The notes under the pieces: generated by a model
What the model was told of the DNA's origin: nothing
Seen by the model: the letters and a program-made list of their open reading frames with translations, nothing else
The model's database searches: none
Assembly: GCF_001183865.1 (NCBI RefSeq)
Contig: NZ_CP012020.1
Span: 186,001-250,000, forward strand
Direction of reading: 5' to 3'
Length of the DNA stretch: 64,000 bases
From: Methylophilus sp. TWE2
GTDB lineage: Bacteria; Pseudomonadota; Gammaproteobacteria; Burkholderiales; Methylophilaceae
In this document: in pieces, positions 13,597 to 34,550 of the stretch
Position numbering within the stretch: the first letter of the stretch is position 1
How the letters are laid out: each line of letters opens with the position of its first letter
Position numbers and translations under genes: made by a program

Positions 13597-13791
13597 CGTG
13601 AGAATTACCCATGAATTGTAATCTTTTTTTGCTGATTCATTGGCAGTTAATTATGGAATCATGCAAATAATCAGCATTCTTCCGACCTTCGCATGACTAG
13701 AGAATTTGCTGTTTCACCATTCAAAAACGTGAGTTGGCATGGATGATGCATGCCCCCACGGGGATTTAAATACTTCAAAAGGGTAATACCG

Positions 13792-14865
13792 TTGAGTCCG
13801 GGCTTTTTACAACGCAAAAAAACCAGTTTTATTGGTGTGGATGTCAGTGCAACCGCCGTCAAGATGGTGGAGTTGAGTGCTGTCGGCAAGCAGCAATTCC
13901 GGCTGGATGGCTATGCCAACGTGACCCTGCCCAAAGGGGTGATCAGTGATGGCAATATTAATGACCTCGCGCAAGTGGCGGATACGTTACGTGCAGCCTG
14001 GCGATTGCTGGGAACGCGCGCACGTCAAGTTGTGTTGGCCTTGCCCACGGCAGCGGTCATTTCCAAACGTGTCATCATGCCTGCCGGTTTGCGCGAAGAG
14101 GACATGGAGTTGCAAGTCGAGTCCGAAGCTAACCAGTATATTCCGTTCCCGCTCGAAGAAATGAATCTCGACTTTCAGGTGCTGGGCCCGATGGGCAAGA
14201 GTACCGATGAAGTAGAGGTACTGATTGTTGCGGCCAAGAAAGAGAAAATCGAGGACCGCGTGGCTGTCGCGGAAGAAGCTGGCCTGAAAGTCAGCATTAT
14301 GGACGTGGAAGCGTATGCAACAGAGACAGCCTATCGCCAGATTCTGAAACAGTTGCCCAACCATAGCAAAAAAACTATCACCATGATTCTTGATATCGGT
14401 GCGCATGTCACGCACGTCAATGTCATGGTAGGCACGCATTCTGTGTATTCTCGCGAGCAAGCCTTTGGTGGCGCAATGTTGTCGCAGGAAATCCAGCGTC
14501 GGTTTGGGCTTTCGCCTGAAGAAAGCGAAATTGCCAAACGACAGGGCGGCTTGCCAGATTCTTATGATCAAGAGGTTCTGCAGCCTTTCTTGCAAAACCT
14601 CGCAGGTGAGGCATCACGTGCCGTCTCTTTCTTTACCAACTCTACACAGTACAACAAGATTGACCATCTCTTGCTGGCCGGCGGGGTCGCAGCCACCGAG
14701 GGCCTGGCCGCCCTCATCGAACAAAAAACTGGTGTACATACCCTGGTGGCCAATAGCTTTCAGGGGATGACACTTGCCCAGAAAATCAAACCCTCCCAGC
14801 TGGAAACGGATGCACCTGCACTGATGATTGCCTGTGGCTTGGCGCTGCGAGGGGTGGACGCATGA
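13792..14865 (+). CDS. pilM: Type IV pilus assembly protein PilM
   Basis: Actin-like cytoplasmic ATPase of the type IVa pilus alignment complex. It starts with the first phosphate-binding strand FIGVDVSATAVKMVEL and carries later motifs such as DIGAHVTHVNVMV and LLAGGVAATEGL. It binds the N-terminal tail of PilN. I place the start at TTG 13792, which has AAAAGGG eight bases before it and gives the usual short lead-in; an in-frame ATG at 13750 has no ribosome site and adds 14 residues. Product length is 357 residues, normal for the family. Its stop overlaps the pilN start (ATGA). Confidence 0.93.
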   Translation: MSPGFLQRKKTSFIGVDVSATAVKMVELSAVGKQQFRLDGYANVTLPKGVISDGNINDLAQVADTLRAAWRLLGTRARQVVLALPTAAVISKRVIMPAGLREEDMELQVESEANQYIPFPLEEMNLDFQVLGPMGKSTDEVEVLIVAAKKEKIEDRVAVAEEAGLKVSIMDVEAYATETAYRQILKQLPNHSKKTITMILDIGAHVTHVNVMVGTHSVYSREQAFGGAMLSQEIQRRFGLSPEESEIAKRQGGLPDSYDQEVLQPFLQNLAGEASRAVSFFTNSTQYNKIDHLLLAGGVAATEGLAALIEQKTGVHTLVANSFQGMTLAQKIKPSQLETDAPALMIACGLALRGVDA

Positions 14866-15452
14866 TTAAAGTCAACCTGTTGCCGCATCGGCAAATCAGA
14901 CGTGCCGAGCGCCAGCGCGAATTTGGACTAATGGCTTCATTGGTAGCCATTGCGGCGGCGGCCATCCTGTTTGTGAGCTGGAGCTATATCCATAACAAAA
15001 TCCAGGCACAACAGGCACGTAACCAGCGCTTGCAGGATGAAATGGTTCGCCTGGATAAAGAGATTGCAGTGATTGGCACCTTGAAAGAGCAAATCAAGCA
15101 TGTGCTGGAGCGCAAGCAGATTGTGGAAGGCCTGCAGAGTGACCGTAACCAGGCGGTATTGATTCTTGATGAACTGGCCAGGCAGTTGCCAGAAGGCATC
15201 TTTCTTAAAAGCGTCAAGCAACTCGAAGATGAGATTGAGCTTAAGGGTGTTGCAGATACCAACACCCGTATCGCCACATTGGTACATAACCTCAGTGACT
15301 CGGCCATTATGCATAGCCCTAACCTGGTGGAGATCAAGGCCAATACCAATGCCCAGGGCGTTAAGGAATATGAATTTGTGTTGCGCGTGTCCTTGAAGCG
15401 TGAGGTCGCTGAAGAAGACCCTGCCAAGAAGTCCGTGCCGGCCAAAGGATAA
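14862..15452 (+). CDS. pilN: Type IV pilus assembly protein PilN
   Basis: Inner-membrane alignment protein of 196 residues. The cytoplasmic N-terminus holds the PilM-binding motif INLLP in the form VNLLPHR. One membrane helix follows (about residues 24-43), then a coiled coil (45-90) and a ferredoxin-like periplasmic domain that pairs with PilO. It overlaps pilM by four bases, and pilO begins six bases after its stop. Confidence 0.95.
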   Translation: MIKVNLLPHRQIRRAERQREFGLMASLVAIAAAAILFVSWSYIHNKIQAQQARNQRLQDEMVRLDKEIAVIGTLKEQIKHVLERKQIVEGLQSDRNQAVLILDELARQLPEGIFLKSVKQLEDEIELKGVADTNTRIATLVHNLSDSAIMHSPNLVEIKANTNAQGVKEYEFVLRVSLKREVAEEDPAKKSVPAKG

Positions 15453-15458
15453 CCAAGC

Positions 15459-16103
15459 ATGCAACTGTCTGATTTTAATAATATTGATCTCAAAACGGCC
15501 GGCAATCTGCCGATGCCAATGAAAGCGGTATTGCTCTCGATTCTGGCAGTGGCGGTGCTGGTGTTGGGCTATGTATTCCTGCTCAGTCCTAATCTCAAAG
15601 AACTGAAAGCCGAAAAAGAAAAAGAGCAAGGGTTACGCGATGAGTACATGGCTAAAAAAATACAAGCGGTGAGGATCAAGGCTTATGAGCAGCAGGTTGT
15701 TGAGATCCAGCGCACCTTTGGTACTTTGCTCAAACAGCTGCCGGATAAATCCGAGATGGATCGCTTGCTGACAGATATTAACCAGGCAGGCTTGAGTCAG
15801 GGCCTTTCGTTTGAAGGCTTTGTGCCTATGCCCGAAATATTCGCCGAGTTTTACGCCGAGAAACCCATCAATATTAAAGTGCTCGGTCACTATCATGAAC
15901 TGGGGGCGTTTGTGACTGAAGTCGCTAAATTATCCCGTATTGTCACGCTGCATAACTTGCAAATCCAGCCTGCCGGCAAAGAGGACAAGCAACCGCATAA
16001 GGATATGCTGGTGATGGAGGCTGTCGCAAAAACCTACCGTTACCTTGACGCAGACGAAGTGGCTGCACGTAAGGCTCAAGAGAGCAAGGCGGGGAAAAAA
16101 TAA
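15459..16103 (+). CDS. pilO: Type IV pilus assembly protein PilO
   Basis: 214-residue partner of PilN. It has a short cytoplasmic segment, one membrane helix (about 25-45, VLLSILAVAVLVLGYVFLL), a coiled coil and a periplasmic ferredoxin-like domain (about 100-195). The PilN-PilO heterodimer links cytoplasmic PilM to the lipoprotein PilP and the secretin. Its stop overlaps the pilP start by one base (TAATG). Confidence 0.95.
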   Translation: MQLSDFNNIDLKTAGNLPMPMKAVLLSILAVAVLVLGYVFLLSPNLKELKAEKEKEQGLRDEYMAKKIQAVRIKAYEQQVVEIQRTFGTLLKQLPDKSEMDRLLTDINQAGLSQGLSFEGFVPMPEIFAEFYAEKPINIKVLGHYHELGAFVTEVAKLSRIVTLHNLQIQPAGKEDKQPHKDMLVMEAVAKTYRYLDADEVAARKAQESKAGKK

Positions 16104-16630
16104 TGCGTAAACAGTCCTTGTTTTCTCTGATTCCAATGTTATTGCTGGCAGCCTGCGGAGGCTCACAGGATGGCGATTTGACGCAGTTTATGAATGAAGC
16201 AGACCAGACCACGGTTGCCCCGGTAGAGCCCTTGCCGGAAGTGCAAGGATTCTCCCCCAAGCAATACAACGCGGATGGTGTGTTACATGACCCTTTTGTG
16301 CCTCGCAAAGCGACGGTGCAAAACACTAATCAGCCTGACTTGAATCGTCCCAAAGAGCCATTAGAGGCGTATCCGCTGGAAAACCTCAAGTTTGTGGGGG
16401 TGTTGAGCAAAAAAAATAGCATCTTTGCCACCATACAAACGCCGGACAACATGGTGTATCAAGTGAAGCCAGGCTCGCATCTGGGTGAAAAATTTGGCGT
16501 GGTGACGGCGTTAACAGAAAACCGTCAAACATTGAAATACGAATTAAAAGTAAAAGAGACGATTCAAGACCCCGTCAGCGGTGAGTGGTCTCAGCAAATG
16601 ACAACATTGGAATTGCAGGAACATCAATGA
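16103..16630 (+). CDS. pilP: Type IV pilus lipoprotein PilP
   Basis: Inner-membrane-associated lipoprotein of 175 residues. The signal sequence ends in the lipobox LLAACG, so Cys18 would be lipidated. An unstructured linker precedes a C-terminal beta-sandwich (about residues 80-170, LENLKFVGVLSKKNSIFATIQTP region) that binds the periplasmic N-domains of PilQ. It overlaps pilQ by four bases. Confidence 0.94.
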   Translation: MRKQSLFSLIPMLLLAACGGSQDGDLTQFMNEADQTTVAPVEPLPEVQGFSPKQYNADGVLHDPFVPRKATVQNTNQPDLNRPKEPLEAYPLENLKFVGVLSKKNSIFATIQTPDNMVYQVKPGSHLGEKFGVVTALTENRQTLKYELKVKETIQDPVSGEWSQQMTTLELQEHQ

Positions 16631-18882
16631 TGAAAAAATTAACATACCTTGTAGCCCGCGTGGCATTCTTGTCGGTCGTGTTGGCGGCACCAGCATGGGG
16701 TATCGCGGCGGAATTGCCAGCCTCTGCCAACCGGTTGCAAGCCGTTGATGTGACCGCCTTGCCCGGTGGCCGGTTGAATGTGCAGCTGCAATTGTCGCAA
16801 CCATTAACAACTGCGCCACTCAGCTTCACCTTGAGCAACCCGCCCAGAATTGTCTTTGACCTGCCGAATACGATGAATGCGACGGGAAAGAATGTGTTGC
16901 CCGTCAGCCAGGGTGTGTTGAAGTCTGTACAAGTGGCGCAGGCCAGTGACCGTAGCCGCGTCGTGCTGAATCTGTCCAAGCCCGTGCAGCATCAATTGCA
17001 GGTGCAAGACCAGGTCTTATTGGTTGCTTTGGCGCAAGAGGGGGCTGACGTTCCTGTTGCGGCTGCCGCTACCGCCGCTAAGCGTTTTGCCGAACCAGAG
17101 GCCGCCGCAGCACATAAAATCCAGAAAATAGACTTTGTCCGTGGCAAAAATGGCGAAGGCCGTATTTTGGTAGATTTGTCTGATAGCCGCGTGGGCGTGA
17201 ATGTGCGCAATGCGGGTAAAACCGTGGTGGTGGATTTTGCCGATACCGAGCTGCCAGAAGAGTTTCAGCGACGCTTGAATGTGGTGAATTTCAATACGCC
17301 GGTACTCTATGTGGACGCCTTGCGCCATCATCACCAGGCGCAGATTGTGATTGAGCCTCAAGGGGATTGGGAGCAATCTGCTTACCAGACCGATCGACGC
17401 CTGGTAGTGGATATCCGTCCCTTGGTCAAAGACCCGAATAAATTAATCCAGGGATCCAAACAGGGATACGCCGGAGAAAAGCTGTCACTTAATTTTCAGC
17501 GTGTGGATGTGCGAGATGTCCTGAAAGTGATTGCTGACTTTACCGGTAAAAATATTGTGGTCAGCGACTCCGTTTCCGGCACTGTCACCATCGGCCTCAA
17601 GGACGTGCCATGGGACCAGGCGCTGGATGTCATCATGAAAAGCAAGGGCCTGGATATGCGCGTCAATGGCAGCGTGATTTCGATTGCGCCTGCTGAAGAA
17701 TTTGCCGCCAAGGAAAAAGCACAGCTGACTGCCGAGGCAGAGCGCGAGACCCTTGAAACACTGCGTACAGAAGTCTTTTCCTTGAAGTACCAGAAAGCCA
17801 TGGACTTCAGGAACATGTTGCTGGGTGGGGGCACCAGCACCGCTGGCGGTGCTACTTCCGGAACGTCCATGGGGGGCTCCACTGGTAGCGCCGCCGGGCG
17901 CATGAACCGCATTCTTTCGCCGCGTGGTAGTGTGACCTTTGATGCGCGTACCAATACGATTTTTGTACAGGACACGCCCAAAAAACTGGAAGAAATTCAG
18001 GCGATCATCAATAAGGTTGATGTGCCAGTCAAACAGGTGATGATTGAATCACGCATGGTCATTGCCTCCAATACATTTTCCAAGGCATTAGGCGCGAGAT
18101 TCGGTATCTCTCAAACCGGCACACCAGGGAGTAACAGCAATCTCTCGATAGGTGGGACGCTGGGTAATAAGGCCACGGCTTTCACTGCGCCCACCACTGC
18201 AGGCGGCACCGGAACATTCACACTTGGTAACCAGGGTGGCACGATCCAAAGTGCGACCCTGAATAACTACACTATCAGCTCTAATGGTCAGCCTGACTTG
18301 ATGTCCAACTTGCCGGTGACAAACGCGTATGGCGGCATAGCGTTGAGTTTGCTGAAATTATCTGCAAACCTGTTGTTAAACTTGGAGCTCTCTGCCCTGG
18401 AGGCGGACTCCCGCGGTAAAGTGATTTCCAGTCCTCGTGTGACCACCGCCAACCAGCAAAAGGCCAGGATTGCACAGGGTGTTGAAATTCCTTATCAAAG
18501 CGCGACAAGCAGTGGTGCGACCGCCGTCAGTTTTAAAAAGGCTGAATTAAGTCTGGAGGTCACACCACAAATTACACCTGATCAAAGAATTATTATGGAT
18601 TTGGATGTGCGTAAAGACAGTCGGGGAGAAACTTTGCCTGGTGGGGTGGCTATTAATACCCAAAACGTGCAAACACAAGTGTTGGTCGGTAATGGCGAAA
18701 CAGTCGTCCTTGGCGGGATTTACGAGCAAGTATCACGTAAAGGGACTGATAAAGTGCCATTCTTTGGTGATCTGCCGGTGGTGGGATACGCCTTCAAGCG
18801 TAACACCAAGCAGGAAGATAAAACCGAACTGTTGATTTTCATCACGCCTAAAGTGATGGATGAAACGATTGCCCTCAACTGA
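16627..18882 (+). CDS. pilQ: Type IV pilus secretin PilQ
   Basis: Outer-membrane secretin through which the type IVa pilus passes, 751 residues. After the signal peptide come AMIN peptidoglycan-binding domains (about 30-260), N0/STN (about 280-350) and N1 domains interrupted by a Gly/Ser/Thr-rich loop (about 399-422), then the secretin beta-barrel domain with the closing motif VPFFGDLPVVGYAFKRN and TELLIFITPKV. Start is the ATG overlapping the pilP stop; an ORF start at 16585 lies inside pilP and is not credible. Together with pilMNOP it forms the complete alignment and outer-membrane subcomplex; pilins and motor ATPases must be elsewhere. Confidence 0.96.
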   Translation: MMKKLTYLVARVAFLSVVLAAPAWGIAAELPASANRLQAVDVTALPGGRLNVQLQLSQPLTTAPLSFTLSNPPRIVFDLPNTMNATGKNVLPVSQGVLKSVQVAQASDRSRVVLNLSKPVQHQLQVQDQVLLVALAQEGADVPVAAAATAAKRFAEPEAAAAHKIQKIDFVRGKNGEGRILVDLSDSRVGVNVRNAGKTVVVDFADTELPEEFQRRLNVVNFNTPVLYVDALRHHHQAQIVIEPQGDWEQSAYQTDRRLVVDIRPLVKDPNKLIQGSKQGYAGEKLSLNFQRVDVRDVLKVIADFTGKNIVVSDSVSGTVTIGLKDVPWDQALDVIMKSKGLDMRVNGSVISIAPAEEFAAKEKAQLTAEAERETLETLRTEVFSLKYQKAMDFRNMLLGGGTSTAGGATSGTSMGGSTGSAAGRMNRILSPRGSVTFDARTNTIFVQDTPKKLEEIQAIINKVDVPVKQVMIESRMVIASNTFSKALGARFGISQTGTPGSNSNLSIGGTLGNKATAFTAPTTAGGTGTFTLGNQGGTIQSATLNNYTISSNGQPDLMSNLPVTNAYGGIALSLLKLSANLLLNLELSALEADSRGKVISSPRVTTANQQKARIAQGVEIPYQSATSSGATAVSFKKAELSLEVTPQITPDQRIIMDLDVRKDSRGETLPGGVAINTQNVQTQVLVGNGETVVLGGIYEQVSRKGTDKVPFFGDLPVVGYAFKRNTKQEDKTELLIFITPKVMDETIALN

Positions 18883-25014: not shown

Positions 25015-26895
25015 ATGCGTTTTATTATCATCCTGCTGGTTGGTTTATCGCACTCGGCCTGCGTTAGGCAGCCTGCAGATGTTCTTCCCAATAATGCCTT
25101 GCATTTGCCAGAGGCAACCCCTGCCAGCATGCCCCTGGCACCAACTTATCCAGAAGTGGATATTTCAGAGATTGAATCCACGCTTTCGATCAAGCCGCCA
25201 TTAAAGTCAGCAACACCAACCTTACTGATTAATCTGGTTGTGCATGATGCGCCCGTGCAGGAGGTTTTGTTAGCGCTTGCACGAGAGAGTGGATTGAATA
25301 TTGATGTCCATCCCGGTTTGCGCGGTAAGGTCACCCTCAATGCCATCCAGCAGTCTGTTCCCTCAATTTTGGCACGTATGTCCAAACAGTTGGACATGTA
25401 TTACGAATGGGCCAATGGCGTGTGGTCTGTGACGCCGGACATGCCCGTCATCCGCAGCTATAAGCTGAACTGTGTCAATATGAGCCGTGATACCACTGGA
25501 TATATCGGCGTCGCCAGCGAAATTAACAGTGCTGGCAGGGCGGCCGCGGGCGCCGGGAGTAATAGCGCAGCACAAGTCGCTGTGGTGCAGGGTGGATCCA
25601 GTAATAGTTCCAGAACAGCCGTGACGTCACAATCGCGCTATCACTTGTGGGAAAGTATTGTTGAGAATATACAGGCCTTACTGGATGAAACAGATAAGGC
25701 TAGTAATGCACGTGATGAAGTGATGGAGGGGACTTCCTCCTTACTGCATTTGGCCGATCAGGCAAGTACGCCATCAGAATCAACACCAAGCTCGCCAGTG
25801 CTTGAAAAGACTATTCATCCTGAGAAAACGGAACGGGCACGTGTGCGCTGGCGCGCTTCACGACTAATGACAAATCCCGAAGCCGGCATTTTGACCATCA
25901 GGGCGTCGCAAAGCCAACAGGCTCAGGTGCGCTCTTATCTTGAATCGGTGATGCAGGTGGCTGCAAGACAGGTGTTGATCGAAGCCACAATCGTCGAAGT
26001 CGAACTCAGTAAAAGCTTCCAGATGGGCATAGACTGGAGCAGACTCTCGGCCTCTGCCCAGCAACGCGGCTGGCAGTTTGCACAATCGCTGGGTAGCGAA
26101 GCTGCTCAATTTAATCGGGCCAATGGCAGTTGGGAAAGCAATAACAGCAAAAATGCATTGGGTCAAAATAACGGCAGCGTCGCATTTATGTTGGGGTATT
26201 TTAATCCACTGAGTCGTTTGGGTAACCTCGGTGCCAGCGTCACTTTACTTGAGCAGTTTGGCAAGACCCGAGTGTTATCCAGCCCAAAACTGATGGTGTT
26301 GAATAATCAGACTGCCATACTCAAAGTGGTCGATAACCTGGTGTATTTCACCATTCAGTCGCAAATCTCACAAAGCAGCAGTAATAGTGGTAGCAATTTG
26401 CAGGCAGTGACAACGACCGCAAACACAGTGCCTGTCGGGTTAGTCATGGCTGTCACCGCCCAAATAAATAGCCGTCAACGCGTCAATTTAAACGTCCGAC
26501 CTACGGTCTCCAAGGTATTACGCTATATCGAAGATCCTAATCCCCAGCTTGGCAGTGGCAGTGCGCGCATCGTTAGCAGTATTCCTGAAATACAAGTGCG
26601 TGAAATGGAATCCGTTCTGAATATTGCCAGCGGCAATATCGCTGTGCTGGGAGGCTTGATGCAGGAGGATCAACGTGAATTTACCGACAAGGTGCCAGGT
26701 CTGTCCAGGCTGCCTGTGATTGGGCAGGCATTTACCGGTAAGAATCAGGCCGCGAAAAAAACGGAGCTGATTGTTTTTCTGCGGCCGACCGTGATTGGCA
26801 TGGCAGATGTGAAATCAGGTGACTTGCAGTCATTCCAGCCCTTACTGCCGGAAGCATTGCCGTCGGATTTCGAGATTAATGAGGAGCCATCATGA
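25015..26895 (+). CDS. mshL: MSHA-type pilus secretin (MshL-like)
   Basis: Outer-membrane secretin of a second type IV filament system, 626 residues. The signal sequence ends in SACVRQ, a plausible lipobox with Cys16, so it may be its own pilotin-free lipoprotein. An STN/N0 domain lies at about 72-140, then a Ser/Gly-rich loop (about 175-200) and the secretin domain ending in GLMQEDQ, VPGLSRLPVIGQAFTG and TELIVFLRP. It differs clearly from PilQ at 16627: no AMIN domains and no pilMNOP partners beside it. It heads a tightly packed eight-gene run; the stop overlaps the next start by four bases. MshL rather than GspD is inferred from the mshN-mshE-mshG order. Confidence 0.85.
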   Translation: MRFIIILLVGLSHSACVRQPADVLPNNALHLPEATPASMPLAPTYPEVDISEIESTLSIKPPLKSATPTLLINLVVHDAPVQEVLLALARESGLNIDVHPGLRGKVTLNAIQQSVPSILARMSKQLDMYYEWANGVWSVTPDMPVIRSYKLNCVNMSRDTTGYIGVASEINSAGRAAAGAGSNSAAQVAVVQGGSSNSSRTAVTSQSRYHLWESIVENIQALLDETDKASNARDEVMEGTSSLLHLADQASTPSESTPSSPVLEKTIHPEKTERARVRWRASRLMTNPEAGILTIRASQSQQAQVRSYLESVMQVAARQVLIEATIVEVELSKSFQMGIDWSRLSASAQQRGWQFAQSLGSEAAQFNRANGSWESNNSKNALGQNNGSVAFMLGYFNPLSRLGNLGASVTLLEQFGKTRVLSSPKLMVLNNQTAILKVVDNLVYFTIQSQISQSSSNSGSNLQAVTTTANTVPVGLVMAVTAQINSRQRVNLNVRPTVSKVLRYIEDPNPQLGSGSARIVSSIPEIQVREMESVLNIASGNIAVLGGLMQEDQREFTDKVPGLSRLPVIGQAFTGKNQAAKKTELIVFLRPTVIGMADVKSGDLQSFQPLLPEALPSDFEINEEPS

Positions 26896-27599
26896 ATCCT
26901 GGGCGGCAAATGATGAGTGTCCGCAGTGTTATCAAGCGATTTCACAGGCCACAACCATATCGTGGGGCATTGATACACCGAGAGTCACGGGAGTTTGAAA
27001 GCCTGGTGCACGTATTTTTGTGGACCGGCGTTGTGTTATGTGTCTCTCTCGTCTGTCAGCAGACTTACCACTTTTTTGAGGAAAGCAGGCAAGCACCTCA
27101 ATCAAATCAGCAGCAGAAGTCTCAGCAAACATTAATCACATCAATCGCCCCAATGCCGCCTGCCGACGTCTTGCCGGTAGTGCAAGACAGACAAGCTGGC
27201 TTGGTTCAAAGTCTATTCCGTTTCAAGCCGGCCGAAACCAAAGCGCTACCAAGTGTGAACCGACAACCAGAGATAGCAGCTTCAACGAAAGTCACTCAAC
27301 AGGCCAATCCTCGGGTCTGGCAGCTGGAGGTAACGCGCCTGCATGAAACGAATATAGCGCAGCAACTTGCCAATGCCAAGTATCAACTACAGTCAGGATA
27401 TTTTGATCTGGCGCGCCAGTCGTTTGAGCAGATTCTGCAGCAAGACCCGCATCATGTCGTTGCCTTGGTGGGTATGTTGGTGGTCATCGATCAACAGGGC
27501 GATCTCACCCAGCGCGAAGACTATCTCAGAAGAATACGTCAGGAGATTCCAGATTATGTGCCTGATGATGATCCTCTCCTGTTACAGGTGGCGGATTGA
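26892..27599 (+). CDS. MshN-like TPR membrane protein
   Basis: 235 residues with a basic cytoplasmic tail, one membrane helix (about residues 40-60, FLWTGVVLCVSLVCQQTYHFF), a Gln/Pro-rich linker, and a C-terminal TPR-like helical part (about 150-235, AKYQLQSGYFDLARQSFEQIL). The topology and place between secretin and ATPase match MshN of MSHA pili, but it is shorter than Vibrio MshN and sequence similarity cannot be tested here. It overlaps mshL by ATGA and leads into mshE with a two-base gap. Confidence 0.72.
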   Translation: MNPGRQMMSVRSVIKRFHRPQPYRGALIHRESREFESLVHVFLWTGVVLCVSLVCQQTYHFFEESRQAPQSNQQQKSQQTLITSIAPMPPADVLPVVQDRQAGLVQSLFRFKPAETKALPSVNRQPEIAASTKVTQQANPRVWQLEVTRLHETNIAQQLANAKYQLQSGYFDLARQSFEQILQQDPHHVVALVGMLVVIDQQGDLTQREDYLRRIRQEIPDYVPDDDPLLLQVAD

Positions 27600-27601
27600 A
27601 T

Positions 27602-29323
27602 ATGCAGGCGGTTACCGGTCAGGCCCGCTTGGGAGAATGGATGCTGGCAAAAGGCATGATCACGGCTGATCAGCTGGAAATCGCACTCATTGAACAGCAT
27701 AAAAATCATCTTCTGCTAGGGCAGCAATTGGTCCGGTTGCATTTTGTGACAGATGCAATCATCCGGGATGCATTGGCGCAGCATCATGCGCAGGAGAGCA
27801 TAGACCTGCATCAGGTCATTCCAGATCACGAGGCGATGGCCATGGTGCCAGAAGCCTTTGCCAAACAACATAAAGTATTGCCGCTACATTTTTCTGCAGA
27901 CAAAGGCGTCATGCGCATTGCATTTTCTGGGCAAAAGCAGCAACAGATGCTGGAGGAGTTGCGTCGCCTATTGGGAGGAAACATCACGCTTGAATCAGTC
28001 CTGGCTACCGAGGCACATCTGGAACAAGCATTAGACAAGTTTTATGGACACAACCTGTCGCTAGATAGCATTTTGCGTGATATTGAGCAGGAGCACGCCA
28101 CTGGCTTACCCTCAATTCAGCAGGAATCACGGCCTGTCATCAGGCTGGTCAATGCAGTGCTCATTGATGCCGTCAAGCAAGGGGCCTCTGATATTCATTT
28201 TGAACCTGAGCTGGCGTTCTTGCGAATTCGGTACCGTATTGATGGCGTGCTATGGCAAATCCGATGCCTGCATGGGCGTTATTGGCCTGCGATGTGTGTG
28301 CGGCTCAAGATACTGTGTGGGATGGATATTGCCGAGCAACGTTTGCCCCAGGATGGCAGAGTAGATCTGTTTTTATGTGGACGGCAAATTGATTTCAGGG
28401 TATCCAGCCATCCCACATTGCATGGTGAAAATATAGTATTACGCGTGCTGGATCGTGACAAGGCCATCATTCCTTTAGATGGGATGGGTTTGCGTACCCC
28501 TCAACTCGAGCAGGTCAAGGCAATGCTTGCCAAACCGGAAGGCTTGCTCATTGTAACAGGCCCTACCGGCAGTGGAAAAACAACGACCCTGTACTCCATG
28601 CTGGCGCATCTCAACCACGAGCATGTCAATATCATGACACTTGAGGATCCCGTGGAATATCCTCATCCACTGATGCGGCAAACCTCGGTCAATGCTGCAA
28701 ATAAGGTGGATTTTATCAATGGTATCCGCGCCATTCTGCGGCAAGACCCAGACATTATCCTGGTCGGTGAAGTGCGCGACGAGTCGACGGCTGCCATGGC
28801 CATACGTGCAGCGATGACTGGCCATCTGGTCATGACGACCTTGCATACGAATAGTGCTGCCTCTGCTTTCGCACGCCTGAAAGACCTGGGTGTCAGTTCT
28901 CACATGATGGCAGGATGCCTAGTGGGGGTGATTGCCCAACGATTAGTCAGGCAGCTGTGCTTATCTTGCAAGCGGGAAATCGAGACTGATCATGCCCTGA
29001 TCGAATGGTTGCAGCAAACGACAGCCGCTGGGCAAGCAGAGTCGTGTCGCGTGTTTGAGGCAGTGGGATGTACCCACTGCCGTATGAGTGGTTATCGCGG
29101 TAGGTTGGTGATGATGGAAGTATTGGCCATACATAGCGACATGGAATCAATGTTGACGCAATCACTGACGATGGAATGCCTGCAAAATCAGGCGCGGCAG
29201 CATGGATATACTACCCTGGCAGAAGAGGGGCTAAGGCTGGTCAGGGCAGGAGAAACCAGTCTGCAGGAATTGCGCCGGATGGTCGACTTAAGCGCCCTCA
29301 GCAATCATACAGGGTTGATATGA
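27602..29323 (+). CDS. mshE: MshE-like pilus extension ATPase (GspE/PilB family)
   Basis: Hexameric ATPase powering filament extension, 573 residues. An N-terminal MshEN-like domain (about 1-150, containing RLGEWMLAKGMITADQLEIAL) of the type that binds c-di-GMP in MshE precedes the motor domain. Walker A is GPTGSGKTTTL near residue 320, with an Asp box (TLEDPVEYP), Walker B (DIILVGEVRDEST) and His box. The zinc cysteines are complete (CLSCK and CTHC). Start is ATG 27602; a TTG six bases upstream is in frame. The upstream GGEEF protein makes c-di-GMP control plausible. It overlaps mshG by ATGA. Confidence 0.9.
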   Translation: MQAVTGQARLGEWMLAKGMITADQLEIALIEQHKNHLLLGQQLVRLHFVTDAIIRDALAQHHAQESIDLHQVIPDHEAMAMVPEAFAKQHKVLPLHFSADKGVMRIAFSGQKQQQMLEELRRLLGGNITLESVLATEAHLEQALDKFYGHNLSLDSILRDIEQEHATGLPSIQQESRPVIRLVNAVLIDAVKQGASDIHFEPELAFLRIRYRIDGVLWQIRCLHGRYWPAMCVRLKILCGMDIAEQRLPQDGRVDLFLCGRQIDFRVSSHPTLHGENIVLRVLDRDKAIIPLDGMGLRTPQLEQVKAMLAKPEGLLIVTGPTGSGKTTTLYSMLAHLNHEHVNIMTLEDPVEYPHPLMRQTSVNAANKVDFINGIRAILRQDPDIILVGEVRDESTAAMAIRAAMTGHLVMTTLHTNSAASAFARLKDLGVSSHMMAGCLVGVIAQRLVRQLCLSCKREIETDHALIEWLQQTTAAGQAESCRVFEAVGCTHCRMSGYRGRLVMMEVLAIHSDMESMLTQSLTMECLQNQARQHGYTTLAEEGLRLVRAGETSLQELRRMVDLSALSNHTGLI

Positions 29324-30519
29324 CTTATTATCGATATACTGCGATTGACCAGCTTGGTCGCCAGCAACGTGGCTGTATGGACGTGCCCTCAGAGCAGTCG
29401 CTTGTGGAGTGTTTGCAGCAGCAAGAGCTGGAGTTACTGACATACAAGCTTGGGCAACCCTTATTCAGGCGCCAGCCACGTGTAAATAGCGCCGTGTTGA
29501 TCGTGTTTTGCATACAAATGGAGCAATTGCTACAAGCGGGTGTGCCCCTATTGCAGGCAATCGCCGAGTTGGCGGAACAAAGTGAACATAAAGGCCTGCA
29601 GGCAGCATTGCGTATTTTATATCGCGATCTGGAGGCGGGCAGGTTGTTGTCACAAGCATTCCAGGCGCAAGCCAATATATTCCCGCCTTTATTCGGTCAA
29701 TTGGTCGATGCGGGGGAACGCACGGGTCAGTTATCCGAGATCTTCGGGCATTTGACTCGCACGCTGAGTTGGCAGGCTGAATTGCTGGCCCAAATCCGTC
29801 GTGGCCTGACTTATCCTGCGGTGTTGTGTGTCATGGTGGCCGTGGCGGCCTATGTGATGTTGACATTCCTGGTGCCGCAGATGGCCAGCTTTTTGCAAGG
29901 CCTCGGTCAGGAGCTGCCTTGGTCCACGCGGTTGCTGCTCACACTTTCAGATGGTGTGATGGCCTATGGCGGCTGGTTGCTACTCGGCATGGTTTTGCTG
30001 GTCGGCGCGCTGATCGGGATAGTACGCCAATCTCCCCAAGCGGCATTGTTGCTGGATCAATGTCTACTTAAAATCCCGGTCTTTGGCCGGCTCCTGCATC
30101 AGTTGGTATTAGCCCGGTTGTGCCGTTTCCTGGGCTTGATGTACCAGACCGGGATTCCTTTATTGCAGGCGCTAGAGTGGTGTCAGCCCCTATTGCGGCA
30201 ACGTGTCATGGCACTGGCATTGGCAGAAGTGCATCAGCGCGTACAGGCAGGTGAGAGTCTGACATCCAGCTTCAAAGCCACGCTGCAATTTCCACCATTA
30301 ATGTTACGTATGCTCAGTGTCGGTGAAACGACAGGTGCGCTGGATCGTATGCTGTTGCAGTTGGCTACCTTTTACGACATGGAGGTACAGTCACAGCTGC
30401 AAACCCTGTTGCGTTTACTGGAGCCCGCGCTCACTATCAGCCTGGGCCTGATGTTATTGTTTTTGATGGCAGCCGTGATGCTGCCAGTGTATGACAGCTT
30501 TTCAAGTCTGCGCTATTAA
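29320..30519 (+). CDS. mshG: MshG-like inner-membrane platform protein (GspF/PilC family)
   Basis: Inner-membrane assembly platform, 399 residues, with two repeated T2SSF domains. The first covers about 60-180 (FCIQMEQLLQAGVPLLQAI) and the second about 262-385 (LARLCRFLGLMYQTGIPLLQAL). Hydrophobic helices follow each repeat, with a helix pair around 160-230 and a C-terminal helix. It transmits the motion of MshE to add pilin subunits. The start is the ATG overlapping the mshE stop, giving MTYYRYTAIDQLG, the typical family opening. Its stop overlaps the next gene by one base (TAATG). Confidence 0.9.
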   Translation: MTYYRYTAIDQLGRQQRGCMDVPSEQSLVECLQQQELELLTYKLGQPLFRRQPRVNSAVLIVFCIQMEQLLQAGVPLLQAIAELAEQSEHKGLQAALRILYRDLEAGRLLSQAFQAQANIFPPLFGQLVDAGERTGQLSEIFGHLTRTLSWQAELLAQIRRGLTYPAVLCVMVAVAAYVMLTFLVPQMASFLQGLGQELPWSTRLLLTLSDGVMAYGGWLLLGMVLLVGALIGIVRQSPQAALLLDQCLLKIPVFGRLLHQLVLARLCRFLGLMYQTGIPLLQALEWCQPLLRQRVMALALAEVHQRVQAGESLTSSFKATLQFPPLMLRMLSVGETTGALDRMLLQLATFYDMEVQSQLQTLLRLLEPALTISLGLMLLFLMAAVMLPVYDSFSSLRY

Positions 30520-32036
30520 TGATGATGGCTAAGCATCGGTTTTTGATCCTCATTGATCAAGAAACAGGTGTGCATATCGCCCATTTTTCCGGGCAGGAGA
30601 TGCTGGCGTTGCGGGCATGTGATCTCGCTAACGAGGGAAGTCGCCTGGCTTTGCTGCGCTGGTATCAACAGTTTCCGCAGGCAAGGATTATATGTTTAAG
30701 CAATCTTGCGGATGAGCAATATCACGTCGAAACTCTACCCCATGTACGTGGCGCCGCCGGACGCCAGTTCTTGTTGCGCAAGTTGGCTGCCTGGCCTTTT
30801 GCACAAGGATTGCATACGGTATTCCGCCTGAATAGCGTGAAAACCCTGCGCAAGGAAGATCGCTTTCTGTTCGCAGCCATTTTCTATCCGACATTGTCAG
30901 CTTGGCTACCGGAGTTACAAAGGCAATCGCTTGGTATTGAGGGTGTGTATACGCAGGCGCTGACGTTGGCCTGTTGGTTACCGGCATTGCCAAAAGGAGT
31001 GGTGCACCGCTTATGCATCCAGTGCAGGCCACAGCAGGTGCGAATGAGTTATTTGCAGCAACAGCGCTTGTTTTTTAGCCGTCTGATTTCTTTGCCGCGA
31101 GAGGGGTTTTCTGATCTGGATCTCCAGTTTGAGCGCATTGCCCAAGAGGCTAATCAAACCCTTATGACACTCACTCATCAGCGGTGGATACAGGCAGCGG
31201 ATGTGGTACAGATAGTCTGGGTGGGTGAAGTGCCAGATGATGTGGGAGAGGTAAAAAAGTATTTGCCATCTCACTATTTATGGGTATGTATCCCTGCACT
31301 TGAATTATCGCGTCAGTCAGGTGGCAATCCAGCGCCAGAAGCCCTGGACGCGATGGATTGGGCCGCCATGCAATCTATCTTGCAAAGAGATAATTTTTTG
31401 CCCAATTTAGCCCCCGAGGAAGCTTTGCGGCCTGGGCACATCGCTCGTTTGAAGCGTCAGTTACATTGGGCAGGTATTGCCATGACCGGTTTGATGTTGT
31501 TGGCGGGTTGGGTGGGGGTGCAGGCTACGCAACACGATTTGCTGCAAGCAGAACAACTCAACCATCGTCTACAAGGCTTAAAGTCAACCCAGCCTGTCAG
31601 TGAGATGAGCCCTGCCCAGTTGCCACGATTGCGTGCATTAACGCAGACCGTGCAAACCTTAGAGGCTTCAGCGCGCTTGCCAGATGATGCATTGCTTTTA
31701 CTACACAGCACCGTGGCGGATATCTCTCACTGGCAACTGACCGCCCTGGAATGGGAGGCGAATTGGTCAATGGATTCACCTGACGATGGTAAAGATGACC
31801 ATCAAGCACTGCTAACGACATGGATAACCACGGAATTCAATCATCAGGCACAGGCAGAGTGGCAGCAGTTATACAAAAGCTTGCAGAGCCTGCCAGGGAT
31901 TGAAAAGGTAGAAGTGGTCCGTCCCTCTGATGCCTATGCTTCACCTCGGCAGGGCGACACTCGTCAAATGCCTTCGGCAGACAAGGTCATACTTAAATTG
32001 TATTTAAAGCGTACTCAGGAAATGGCGCAATCGTAA
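30519..32036 (+). CDS. Uncharacterised membrane protein of the pilus locus, possible MshI/GspL-like role
   Basis: 505 residues that I do not recognise by family. About 315 cytoplasmic-looking residues come first, then one membrane helix (about 318-338, WAGIAMTGLMLLAGWVGV) and a periplasmic part of about 165 residues with helical segments. This layout (large cytoplasmic domain, one helix, periplasmic ferredoxin-sized domain) is that of GspL or a PilM-PilN fusion, and the gene lies where MshI would be expected to act, next to the platform protein. The actin-like ATPase motifs of PilM are not evident. Function is inferred from topology and context only. It is coupled to both neighbours by one-base overlaps. 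Confidence 0.8.
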   Translation: MMMAKHRFLILIDQETGVHIAHFSGQEMLALRACDLANEGSRLALLRWYQQFPQARIICLSNLADEQYHVETLPHVRGAAGRQFLLRKLAAWPFAQGLHTVFRLNSVKTLRKEDRFLFAAIFYPTLSAWLPELQRQSLGIEGVYTQALTLACWLPALPKGVVHRLCIQCRPQQVRMSYLQQQRLFFSRLISLPREGFSDLDLQFERIAQEANQTLMTLTHQRWIQAADVVQIVWVGEVPDDVGEVKKYLPSHYLWVCIPALELSRQSGGNPAPEALDAMDWAAMQSILQRDNFLPNLAPEEALRPGHIARLKRQLHWAGIAMTGLMLLAGWVGVQATQHDLLQAEQLNHRLQGLKSTQPVSEMSPAQLPRLRALTQTVQTLEASARLPDDALLLLHSTVADISHWQLTALEWEANWSMDSPDDGKDDHQALLTTWITTEFNHQAQAEWQQLYKSLQSLPGIEKVEVVRPSDAYASPRQGDTRQMPSADKVILKLYLKRTQEMAQS

Positions 32037-32647
32037 TGTCGGGTTTCTATTGGCGAGAGTTACGTATCACTATGCTAGCGTGGTTAGCCGTGTTAAGTAT
32101 ATTGGGCATGTTGCTAGCGTTAGTCCTGTATCGTCAGCGCAATGCTGAAGAGGCATTGGTAGAGGCGGAGAGACAATGGCAGCATTTCCAGCAACAAACC
32201 AAGCAGTATGCCAGCTATCAGCCTGAAATGAGCTACTACTTCGCGCATCGCGAAGGATGGCAAACATCCGGGTTGATGCAACTACCTGATTTTGATCAGT
32301 GGGAGTCTGCTTGGGCTAAAATGCAGCAACAGTTTTCTCTCCCTCATTTGGCATATCAGATTCAGCCATCGATGGCTTGTCCAGGAGGCCAGTGTCGTCA
32401 GCAATGGCCGCTTAAGCAATTACCTGAGCTCAATTTCACGGTCACTCCCATCCAACTCAGCTGGTCGGTGCTTCATGAGTTGGACGTGAGTCCATGGTTA
32501 CGGGCGTTGCAGCGTCAATATCACGGTATGTTGCTCGTGCGTCGTTGCCAATGGCAGTTGGCAGAACAGGCAGGGTCTATTGCCGTCCAATGCGATCTGG
32601 CGATGTTTAATTTCCCTAATGTATTAGCAAGCGCGGGATCATCATGA
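32036..32647 (+). CDS. Uncharacterised small membrane protein, PilO/MshJ-like topology
   Basis: 203 residues with one N-terminal membrane helix (about 13-32, WLAVLSILGMLLALVLY), then a coiled coil of about 35 residues and a periplasmic domain with four cysteines, two of them close together (CPGGQCRQQ). PilO, GspM and MshJ share this layout, and the gene follows one with GspL-like topology, so a PilN/PilO-type pair is likely. Sequence similarity to those families is not evident by eye. Disulfide bonding is possible given the paired cysteines. Confidence 0.78.
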   Translation: MSGFYWRELRITMLAWLAVLSILGMLLALVLYRQRNAEEALVEAERQWQHFQQQTKQYASYQPEMSYYFAHREGWQTSGLMQLPDFDQWESAWAKMQQQFSLPHLAYQIQPSMACPGGQCRQQWPLKQLPELNFTVTPIQLSWSVLHELDVSPWLRALQRQYHGMLLVRRCQWQLAEQAGSIAVQCDLAMFNFPNVLASAGSS

Positions 32648-33822
32648 TGCACACGCCTATCTTGCAGAAAGGCGTGGCCGTCTGGCTTGTCCTGTTATTG
32701 CTGTCTGGCGCGGGCGGATGGATGCTGTATAAGCTTTCCCATATCTATCCTGCCAAGCAATTGACCATGCATAAAACGATCACTTCGCTTGCGCTGGCAA
32801 AACAGGCGTTATTGGCTTATGCCCAGCAGCCGCTGGGGCTCACCCAGTGCGAGTCAAATTGCCCACGTCCTGGAGACCTGCCATGTCCTGACCGTAATAA
32901 CGACGGTATTGCTGAGACCTCATGCAGCAATACCGCCCGCCTGGGGCGACTGCCATGGAAAACCTTGGGCATTGGCGACGTGCGTGATGACAGTGGAGAG
33001 CGATTGTGGTATGCCGTGTCTGAGCGTTACAAGAACAACCCGCGCATATTGCCATTAAACCTCGACACGCCTGGTACCTGGAGCCTGCTACTAACAGAAG
33101 GCTTACACTGGGATGCAACCCAGGGCAATGGCGTGGTTGCGGTGATCATTGCGCCCATGCACCCACTGGTGCGGGAAGATGGTTGGATACAGCAAAGGCA
33201 AGAATCCTCCAGCGAAATAGCCAAGCACTATCTTGATGTCCATGCTTTGGATAATGCCAGTCCTATCGAAAATGCAGTAAACGGTTTTGTCATGGCGGCA
33301 TCTAGCCCTCACTTCAATGATGTGGTTTGGCCCATCACGGCGGGGAGCATGCACCAGCAAATGCAAAAGCACGTCTTGAGCGAACTCAAGCGCAGTCTGC
33401 GCTGTACGGCAGCACCATGCCAGGCCTATCCATCACCCGCTGCGGCAGAGGATGAGCGCTGCCTGGGTTTCCAGTCGGTGGCTGTCGGGCAATGCCTCTC
33501 CACTCTTGTAAATATTGGGCGCTTACCTCTGGATGCTACGTCACATTGGCCTGGCACTACGCAGCATATGCTGGACGGCGATGCCAGACACCACTGGTTC
33601 CAGCAGAATAGCTGGCGGGAACAAGTGTTTTACCAGTCTGGCCCAACGCAAACAACTATTATCGTGGCAGGAGAGCGTCTACCGGGGCAATCCCGGGAGA
33701 GTACAACTGATAAGGGGAATCTGAATGCCTACCTGGAGGCATCCACGTTACAGGCCTTGCAGGCACAAAATGCCTACGCACTGACCTTGCCAAGTAACGA
33801 CATTCTTGAGCGTGTGATGTAG
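32644..33822 (+). CDS. Large pilin-like protein (GspK/PilX-like N-terminus)
   Basis: 392 residues starting with a short basic leader and QKG followed by VAVWLVLLLLSG. This fits a class III signal of the GspK/PilX kind, which lacks the Glu at position +5. The globular part is Cys-rich and contains GDLPCPDRNNDGIAET, then GRLPWKTLGIGD and LWYAVS. The same LPCPD...LPW..LG pattern returns in the next gene, so the two are probably distant paralogues. A Ca-binding-like run (DRNNDGIAE) is present. It may sit at the filament tip, like GspK or PilY1-associated minor pilins; that is inference. It overlaps the previous gene by ATGA. Confidence 0.78.
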   Translation: MMHTPILQKGVAVWLVLLLLSGAGGWMLYKLSHIYPAKQLTMHKTITSLALAKQALLAYAQQPLGLTQCESNCPRPGDLPCPDRNNDGIAETSCSNTARLGRLPWKTLGIGDVRDDSGERLWYAVSERYKNNPRILPLNLDTPGTWSLLLTEGLHWDATQGNGVVAVIIAPMHPLVREDGWIQQRQESSSEIAKHYLDVHALDNASPIENAVNGFVMAASSPHFNDVVWPITAGSMHQQMQKHVLSELKRSLRCTAAPCQAYPSPAAAEDERCLGFQSVAVGQCLSTLVNIGRLPLDATSHWPGTTQHMLDGDARHHWFQQNSWREQVFYQSGPTQTTIIVAGERLPGQSRESTTDKGNLNAYLEASTLQALQAQNAYALTLPSNDILERVM

Positions 33823-33824
33823 CA

Positions 33825-34550
33825 ATGAGCCAGCGTCTTCCCCAGTTCCGGCAGAAACAAAAACTGATCCACGGCTTTAGTTTACTGGAGATGGCCATGG
33901 CGCTCGTGATTCTAAGTTTGATGATGGGGTGGTTAATTATGCCCTTGCGCGTACAGAATGGTTTACATAAATATCAGCAGACTGACCAGCGTCTGACGCA
34001 GGCGCAGCAGGCATTACTGGGGCATGCCATTATTTATCATTATCTGCCATGCCCGGATACTGATCAGCCGCCGGATGGCTGGGAGAACGTCTTGGCGAAC
34101 CAGACTTGCACCAGTGATGAAGGGCTTCTGCCATGGCTGCAATTAGGTGTGGCGGCAACCGATGCCTGGGGGCGCTTTTTTCGTTATCGGGCGGATAGTA
34201 CGTTTACCCATCATGCCCAGTGGTTTTCCATCTCCGCCGCTGAGAGTGCCAGTAATATTCAAGTGACTGGCGAGGCTGGGGCGGTCACCAGCATCCCTAG
34301 TCGGCCAGGAGCAATCATCCTTTCGCATGGCGAAAATGGCCTGGGTGGCATACAATCCGTGTCTGGTGGGCAAACATATGCCGTGTCGGCGCCTGTACAT
34401 CCTGACGAACAGGAAAACGCAGATGGCGACCTTGTTTTTGTCGATAAAGCACAACAGCAGGCGGGTGGTGCAGTGTTTGATGACCGCCTGGTGATGCTGT
34501 CACCTAAGGTGCTGATACAGCAGATGGTGCAGGCGCAAAGACTGCCTTGA
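33825..34550 (+). CDS. Prepilin-type minor pilin-like protein
   Basis: 241 residues with a clear prepilin peptidase site: a 17-residue basic leader ending in HG, cut before FSLLEMAMALVILSLMM, with Glu at +5. The domain then shows YLPCPDTDQPPDGWE, GLLPWLQLGVAATDAWG and RYRAD, matching the pattern in the preceding gene. At 224 mature residues it is larger than a major pilin, so a minor or tip role is more likely. It is the only classical prepilin in the eight-gene run. A prepilin peptidase must be supplied from elsewhere. Confidence 0.85.
   Translation: MSQRLPQFRQKQKLIHGFSLLEMAMALVILSLMMGWLIMPLRVQNGLHKYQQTDQRLTQAQQALLGHAIIYHYLPCPDTDQPPDGWENVLANQTCTSDEGLLPWLQLGVAATDAWGRFFRYRADSTFTHHAQWFSISAAESASNIQVTGEAGAVTSIPSRPGAIILSHGENGLGGIQSVSGGQTYAVSAPVHPDEQENADGDLVFVDKAQQQAGGAVFDDRLVMLSPKVLIQQMVQAQRLP

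Follow-up and report, generated by a model that had tools for sequence, protein, structure and literature searches.

A probable type IV filament operon of Methylophilus sp. TWE2 and a candidate shaft pilin encoded elsewhere in the genome

Where would an operon that encodes the parts of a type IV filament machine, with no small major pilin among them, obtain its fibre, and what kind of machine does it encode? The question is raised by eight genes at positions 25015-34550 of a 64,000-nucleotide window of the Methylophilus sp. TWE2 genome (NZ_CP012020.1, 186,001 to 250,000, forward strand). These specify a secretin, a tetratricopeptide repeat (TPR) protein, an MshEN-type assembly ATPase, a platform protein, two membrane proteins that belong to no family (p505 and p203) and two pilin-like proteins (p392 and p241). 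The initial annotation had described this set, and its open reading frames (ORFs) are all confirmed. None of the operon's ORFs is a small major pilin, a PilT-type ATPase or a prepilin peptidase. The explanation favoured here, with somewhat better than even confidence, is that the operon specifies a type IV filament machine of its own kind, akin to the mannose-sensitive haemagglutinin (MSH, MSHA) and type II secretion (T2SS) systems and separate from both, with a shaft built from a remote prepilin called LPGDD. The missing major pilin is most likely LPGDD. The lineage of this operon is called window-type below, and C1 is the genome's single contig of 3.08 Mb.

The eight ORFs are intact and closely packed (Table 1). 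Their spacings are, in order, -4, -4, -4, -1, -1, -4 and +2 bases, which gives six overlaps of one to four bases and a two-base gap ahead of p241, the last gene; moeB begins 15 bases past p241. The ratios of nonsynonymous to synonymous substitution (dN/dS), measured against the related locus L073, range from 0.07 to 0.40 for the eight genes, arguing that the operon is under purifying selection. The P-loop and cysteine pairs of the ATPase are invariant in 20 relatives, and one membrane segment is predicted, by eye, in the TPR protein. Pfam and NCBIfam contain no match for p505, p203 or p392. Of the 67 loci from relatives that reach at least 9 kb upstream of p241, 64 contain all six core genes E-G-p505-p203-p392-p241, a count that depends on author-set score thresholds (the failing loci are L150, L153 and L166); the loci were reached via p392 or p241, and several strains were entered twice. 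Such a grouping is more than chance. The order SecL-TPR-E-G-p505-p203-K-p392-p241 recurs in the Methylophilaceae and well beyond, with p203 conserved directly after p505, and 187 of the 399 Burkholderiales genomes sampled, representing 75 of 158 genera, have a p505 homologue. At the sequence level, comparison with relatives thus shows an intact set of genes that is conserved as a whole: secretin, ATPase and platform, the paralogues p392 and p241, and with them p505 and p203.

Table 1. Genes of the filament operon and the adjoining cyclase (window coordinates)
Feature	Coordinates	Strand	Basis
GGDEF diguanylate cyclase, 344 aa	23859..24893	+	PF00990; ends 121 bp upstream of operon
Secretin, 626 aa, MshL-like	25015..26895	+	PF00263; TIGR02519 (MshL) 241.2 bits vs cut-off 250.2
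TPR protein, MshN place, 235 aa	26892..27599	+	TPR_19 E 9e-5, under Pfam cut-off; position
MshEN/GspE-type assembly ATPase, 575 aa, TTG start as called	27596..29323	+	PF00437, PF05157, NF053729
Platform protein, 399 aa	29320..30519	+	PF00482
p505, 505-aa membrane protein, PilM/N or MshI place	30519..32036	+	Family-less; role inferred from position
p203, 203-aa membrane protein, PilO or MshJ place	32036..32647	+	Family-less; role inferred from position
p392, 392-aa pilin-like protein without Glu5, duplicated head	32644..33822	+	Homology to p241, internal repeat, model
p241, 241-aa prepilin with Glu5	33825..34550	+	PF07963 (N_methyl); model

The lineage of the machine was judged from a tree of 67 of 96 ATPase sequences (32 window-type, 30 MSH and five others), with 29 window-type sequences, many of them near-duplicates, left out. 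Window-type ATPases form a clade of their own (ultrafast bootstrap (UFBoot) 96, FastTree 1.0), and the MSH ATPases form a separate one (UFBoot 100, FastTree 0.53); FastTree joins the window type to T2SS-like ATPases at 0.40. The genome also carries an apparently complete MSHA operon at C1:613,932-630,013, in the order E-G-A-C-D-O-P-Q-I-I2-J-K-L-M-N. Its classical MshL scores 254.2 bits and the window secretin 241.2 against the MSH-specific cut-off of 250.2; among the ten proteins of that operon that were scanned, the ATPase and the first pilin are recognised by generic domain models, and the other gene names, given from order and prepilin motifs, are presumptive. The initial annotation had called the window locus MSHA-like, adding that a full msh operon elsewhere would make it a split but ordinary MSHA system. 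That operon was indeed found, and a split or truncated MSHA is nonetheless rejected, because the operon elsewhere is complete and the ATPases fall in separate clades. The first description holds as to a filament-type machine without a small pilin of its own, and not as to an MSHA identity.

In the MSH model of Denise et al. 2019 (PMC6668835), mshA, E, G, L and M are mandatory and mshA may be a loner. The window ATPase falls outside the MSH clade, though a T2SSE protein with an MshEN domain and a T2SSF protein are present; the operon has no mshM ORF and no mshA, and the genome's mshA-like gene sits in the complete MSHA operon. According to that paper, MSH loci lack a prepilin peptidase as a rule, and PMC9815625 describes the MSHA pilus of V. 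cholerae as dependent on PilT. The absence from the locus of a peptidase and a retraction ATPase, pointed out in the initial annotation, is therefore real and quite usual for a system of the MSH type, so that the missing pilin alone of the three absences calls for notice. Denise et al. (PMC6668835) counted 101 'generic' systems, which may include the window-type operon.

The machine resembles MSH in its order secretin-TPR-ATPase-platform, its MshEN ATPase and MshL-like secretin, the want of a peptidase in the locus and, in relatives, an MshM-like gene. It differs from MSH in its separate ATPase clade, in having no mshM in the operon and an unlinked candidate major pilin, and in that p505, p203, p392 and p241 stand in for MshI, MshJ and the MshA-Q pilins. 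With the T2SS it shares a secretin, a GspE/GspF-type ATPase and platform, and a pilin-like protein without glutamate at position 5 (Glu5), of which GspK is the T2SS example. Unlike the T2SS, with its five pseudopilins (GspG-K), it has only two pilin-like genes in the operon, and it shows no similarity to GspC, GspL or GspM: GspC was not found in Pfam and NCBIfam scans of the operon proteins, and the p505 and p203 profiles showed no similarity to E. coli GspL and GspM, an insensitive comparison with single-sequence targets. These profiles, built from 12 and 10 rows and again from 63 and 49 rows, likewise showed no similarity to the PilM-, PilN- and PilO-like proteins of the window or to the genome's MshI, MshI2 and MshJ. 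No pairing tried thus gave grounds to recognise p505 or p203 as PilM/N/O, GspL/M or MshI/J proteins, and that identification was rejected.

In type IVa pili (T4aP), the PilSR two-component system controls pilA. Relatives of the window operon resemble T4aP in this respect, their remote pilin gene being probably under control of the two-component and sigma54 type, and the peptidase is presumably shared. The window operon differs from T4aP in forming one compact operon, in its MshEN ATPase and in its pilins. A pilM-N-O-P-Q-type cluster, in T4aP layout, is separate from it at 13750-18882 of the window, some 5 kb before the cyclase.

By sequence, p241 and p392 are paralogues, with homology that extends over 200 columns (99.5%). 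p241 has a Glu5 that is invariant in 30 sequences, and its model contains a helix at residues 20-71 (predicted local distance difference test (pLDDT) 81). p392 has no Glu5 and contains an internal repeat, seen as a duplicated head (model pLDDT 86.5). A Foldseek search of the PDB returned nothing at E <=0.001 for either model, which does not in itself show a new fold, and the VIA rows for the two models are weak; in searches of PDB sequences with profiles of LPGDD and p241, most matches were to the N-termini of pilins.

The candidate for the missing pilin came to notice as another prepilin encoded downstream of the operon in several loci outside the Methylophilaceae. LPGDD is a prepilin whose N-terminus is strongly conserved and which carries a PGD motif; its gene in this genome (212 aa) is at C1:510,460-511,095, 290 kb from the operon, beside genes that we take to be mlaFED. 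The prepilin is found in 202 of the 399 genomes of the order (E <=1e-10). Because a single-sequence search with p392 misses divergent members (it found 69 of 150 family genomes, and G030, for example, has p505 with no p392 match), co-occurrence was counted with p505 and p241. LPGDD and strong p241 (E below 1e-15), at author-set thresholds for both, occur together in 196 genomes, p241 alone in 5, LPGDD alone in 6 and neither in 192 (phi 0.945); with p505 the corresponding numbers are 181, 6 (p505 only), 21 (LPGDD only) and 191 (phi 0.867). As a control, an MSH marker (classical MshE at E <=1e-150, 109 genomes) is associated with LPGDD at a phi of only 0.392, and 17 genomes with this marker are without p241, p505 and LPGDD alike. 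The association also holds within families. In the 14 families of mixed state, where the system was scored as p505 or strong p241 and a family could be assigned for 308 of the 399 genomes, both are present in 68 genomes, the system only in 2, LPGDD only in 2 and neither in 58. Furthermore, in 15 of 27 loci outside the Methylophilaceae that extend at least 2.5 kb downstream of p241 (family judged from titles and layout), LPGDD follows p241 on the same strand, at a distance of 264-8154 bp. Several LPGDD matches occur in some genomes, with seven in G264, as can be the case for major pilins. Four to seven matches each were seen in G264, G302, G481, G253, G357 and G184, some of which may be fragments from split contigs. 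In six loci (L230, L231, L233, L235, L236 and L237) the operon adjoins an mla-like cluster, identified by eye, which is the LPGDD neighbourhood in Methylophilaceae.

Genes for control are found beside both the operon and LPGDD. Among 12 longer stretches from relatives, 10 have an MshM-like ATPase upstream of the operon and nine have a protein that starts like an NtrC-type response regulator; a domain scan of one of these nine gave receiver, sigma54-activator and helix-turn-helix (HTH) domains. In nine loci (L131, L132, L142, L150, L157, L158 and L243-L245), LPGDD has beside it, divergently transcribed, a histidine kinase of some 570 aa (HATPase_c, with a weak PrsK match). The divergent pair is kept both where it is linked with the operon and where it is not. 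Sigma54-like sites (at least 10 of 12 consensus positions, no more than 200 bp upstream) precede six of the nine LPGDD genes that have the kinase beside them; the figure for control ORFs, which were called mechanically, is 21 of 1002 (p 1.6e-8), and for LPGDD genes with no adjacent kinase four of 18. Together with the regulator at the operon front, these sites fit a model in which that regulator would act on the remote LPGDD gene in relatives.

The situation in Methylophilus is different. LPGDD copies of the Methylophilus type (L042, L241 and L242) score 7, 7 and 8, like most controls, and sigma54 control may have been lost in this genus. The regulator, MshM and kinase are away from their usual places, the first two missing between cyclase and secretin in Methylophilus-type loci, and the small K gene is absent from all 13 of these loci, as it is from L151 and L166. 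The GGDEF cyclase is upstream in 12 of the 13 loci, the stretch from the thirteenth ending too early. Strain G048, labelled as the same genus, has a relative of the window cyclase followed by regulator, MshM and secretin, so that loss of the middle genes would give the window layout. The initial proposal that the nearby diguanylate cyclase could control the ATPase through cyclic di-GMP (c-di-GMP) is in keeping with these data: the ATPase scores 55.7 bits against the curated c-di-GMP domain model NF053729 (cut-off 38), which matches 20 of 20 window-type ATPases (E <=1e-5). A strict c-di-GMP motif pattern is matched by 34 of 61 window-type and 4 of 30 MSH ATPases, and is too narrow.

These results suggest how the machine might work. 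p505 and p203, from their position, would form the alignment complex, and the Glu5-less, double-headed p392 would act together with p241 to prime and cap the filament, p392 as the tip pilin and p241 as the minor pilin adjoining it. LPGDD, encoded apart from the operon, would supply the shaft. The genome's A24 peptidase would serve to process the prepilins and its PilT-type motor to drive any retraction, and c-di-GMP, by binding to the MshEN domain, would gate extension. In many relatives, the sensor kinase and NtrC-type regulator probably switch on LPGDD via sigma54; in Methylophilus, where kinase, regulator, MshM and K have gone from their usual places, the cyclase lies beside the operon.

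Several points weigh against this explanation. That LPGDD is polymerised by the window-type machine is a proposal from gene content, and the counts behind it depend on the thresholds chosen: with LPGDD at E below 1e-25, the numbers against p241 become 186 (both), 15 (p241 only), 4 (LPGDD only) and 194 (neither). In none of the 48 Methylophilaceae loci examined, that of this genome among them, is LPGDD linked to the operon, and in 12 of the 27 loci outside the family the retrieved flank does not contain it. LPGDD is present in 81 of 124 family genomes, a larger share than that of p392 (69 of 150, divergent copies missed), and G020 and G029, two small relatives, have LPGDD with no p505 match in a search that had no positive control. 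With regard to a separate lineage, the branching order of window type, MSH and T2SS-like ATPases has a UFBoot of only 62, and p505 and p203 resemble no known family in profile comparisons.

The strongest alternative, though an unlikely one, is a minimal machine with two pilins, in which p241 forms the polymer and p392 the tip of a short pilus or pseudopilus, perhaps for secretion, LPGDD serving another filament and owing its co-occurrence to shared history. Here p241, which keeps its Glu5 and whose model weakly resembles major pilins, is the sole canonical prepilin from the ATPase gene through p241 in the loci tested by regular expression, and the two small relatives just mentioned also fit. 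Against such a machine speak the tight co-occurrence of LPGDD and p241, also inside mixed families, the frequent linkage of LPGDD and the sigma54-like sites that suit a regulator at the operon front.

Less likely still, the operon is a divergent MSH system, a second copy and an ordinary member of that family, with p241 or LPGDD as its equivalent of MshA. The gene order from secretin to platform, the near pass of the MshL model and the MshM-like gene upstream in most of the longer stretches from relatives all point this way, as does the loner status of mshA in the published model (PMC6668835). This reading is opposed by the separate ATPase clades, the coexisting classical MSHA operon, the lack of profile similarity between p505/p203 and that operon's MshI, MshI2 and MshJ, and the loose association of LPGDD with the MSH marker.

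Two further explanations are very improbable. The machine might assemble the pilin of the genome's MSHA operon or T4aP, both kinds being encoded, but 100 of the 187 p505 genomes are without the MSH marker, and in the complete genome G006 the system occurs alongside no more than eight N_methyl proteins in all, namely p241, LPGDD, five T4aP-like proteins and one more (roles from coordinates and lengths). The evidence points, as the initial annotation suggested, to a pilin from elsewhere; the best candidate, LPGDD, is a third prepilin and neither MshA nor a pilin of the pilMNOPQ-type system. Equally improbable is decay of the system in Methylophilus to the point where no filament is made. The missing K gene and the displaced regulator, MshM and kinase speak for it; the intact ORFs, low dN/dS and invariant ATPase motifs speak against it.

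Other filament loci are present in the genome, which has ten T2SSE matches, 19 N_methyl matches (E <=1) and two A24 peptidases. Two short T2SSE proteins are adjacent at 1,042 kb, in what appears to be a PilT/PilU layout. Two further T2SS-like loci, L032 (C1:822001-842000) and L033 (C1:2331001-2351000), lie outside the window; each has a GspG-like prepilin, platform, ATPase, three proteins in PilM/N/O places, a TPR-secretin and further prepilins, and L033 has a putative PEP-CTERM protein some kilobases off. A lone 612-aa GspE-type ATPase (L036, 6982-8820, near C1 2,577 kb) has no recognisable platform, secretin or pilin gene in the 15 kb examined. Finally, L038 (C1:1120001-1140000) is a Tad-like locus with a Flp-like small pilin, an A24 peptidase, a secretin and genes in TadA, TadB and TadC places, named by layout. 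No ORF matches p505, p203 or p392 in loci L032-L042 (BLASTP E <=0.01), which include the MSHA operon to C1:625,000.

A literature search, with most subscription journals beyond its reach, recognised no description of the operon. The chances are about even that the operon represents a class of type IV filament hitherto unrecognised, equal in rank to MSH or T2SS and found in nearly half of the order's sampled genomes. In that case its ATPase would be gated by c-di-GMP, its alignment complex made up of proteins with no known domains, its tip pilin, with tandem heads and no Glu5, derived from the pilin encoded next to it, and its shaft pilin encoded apart, under sigma54 two-component control belonging to the machine itself. 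A machine whose marker p505 is this widespread in the Burkholderiales has parts that Pfam and NCBIfam do not contain. The twin pilins p392 and p241 would provide a simple case of a tip pilin arising by duplication, and with a specific remote pilin named, the fibre becomes directly testable.

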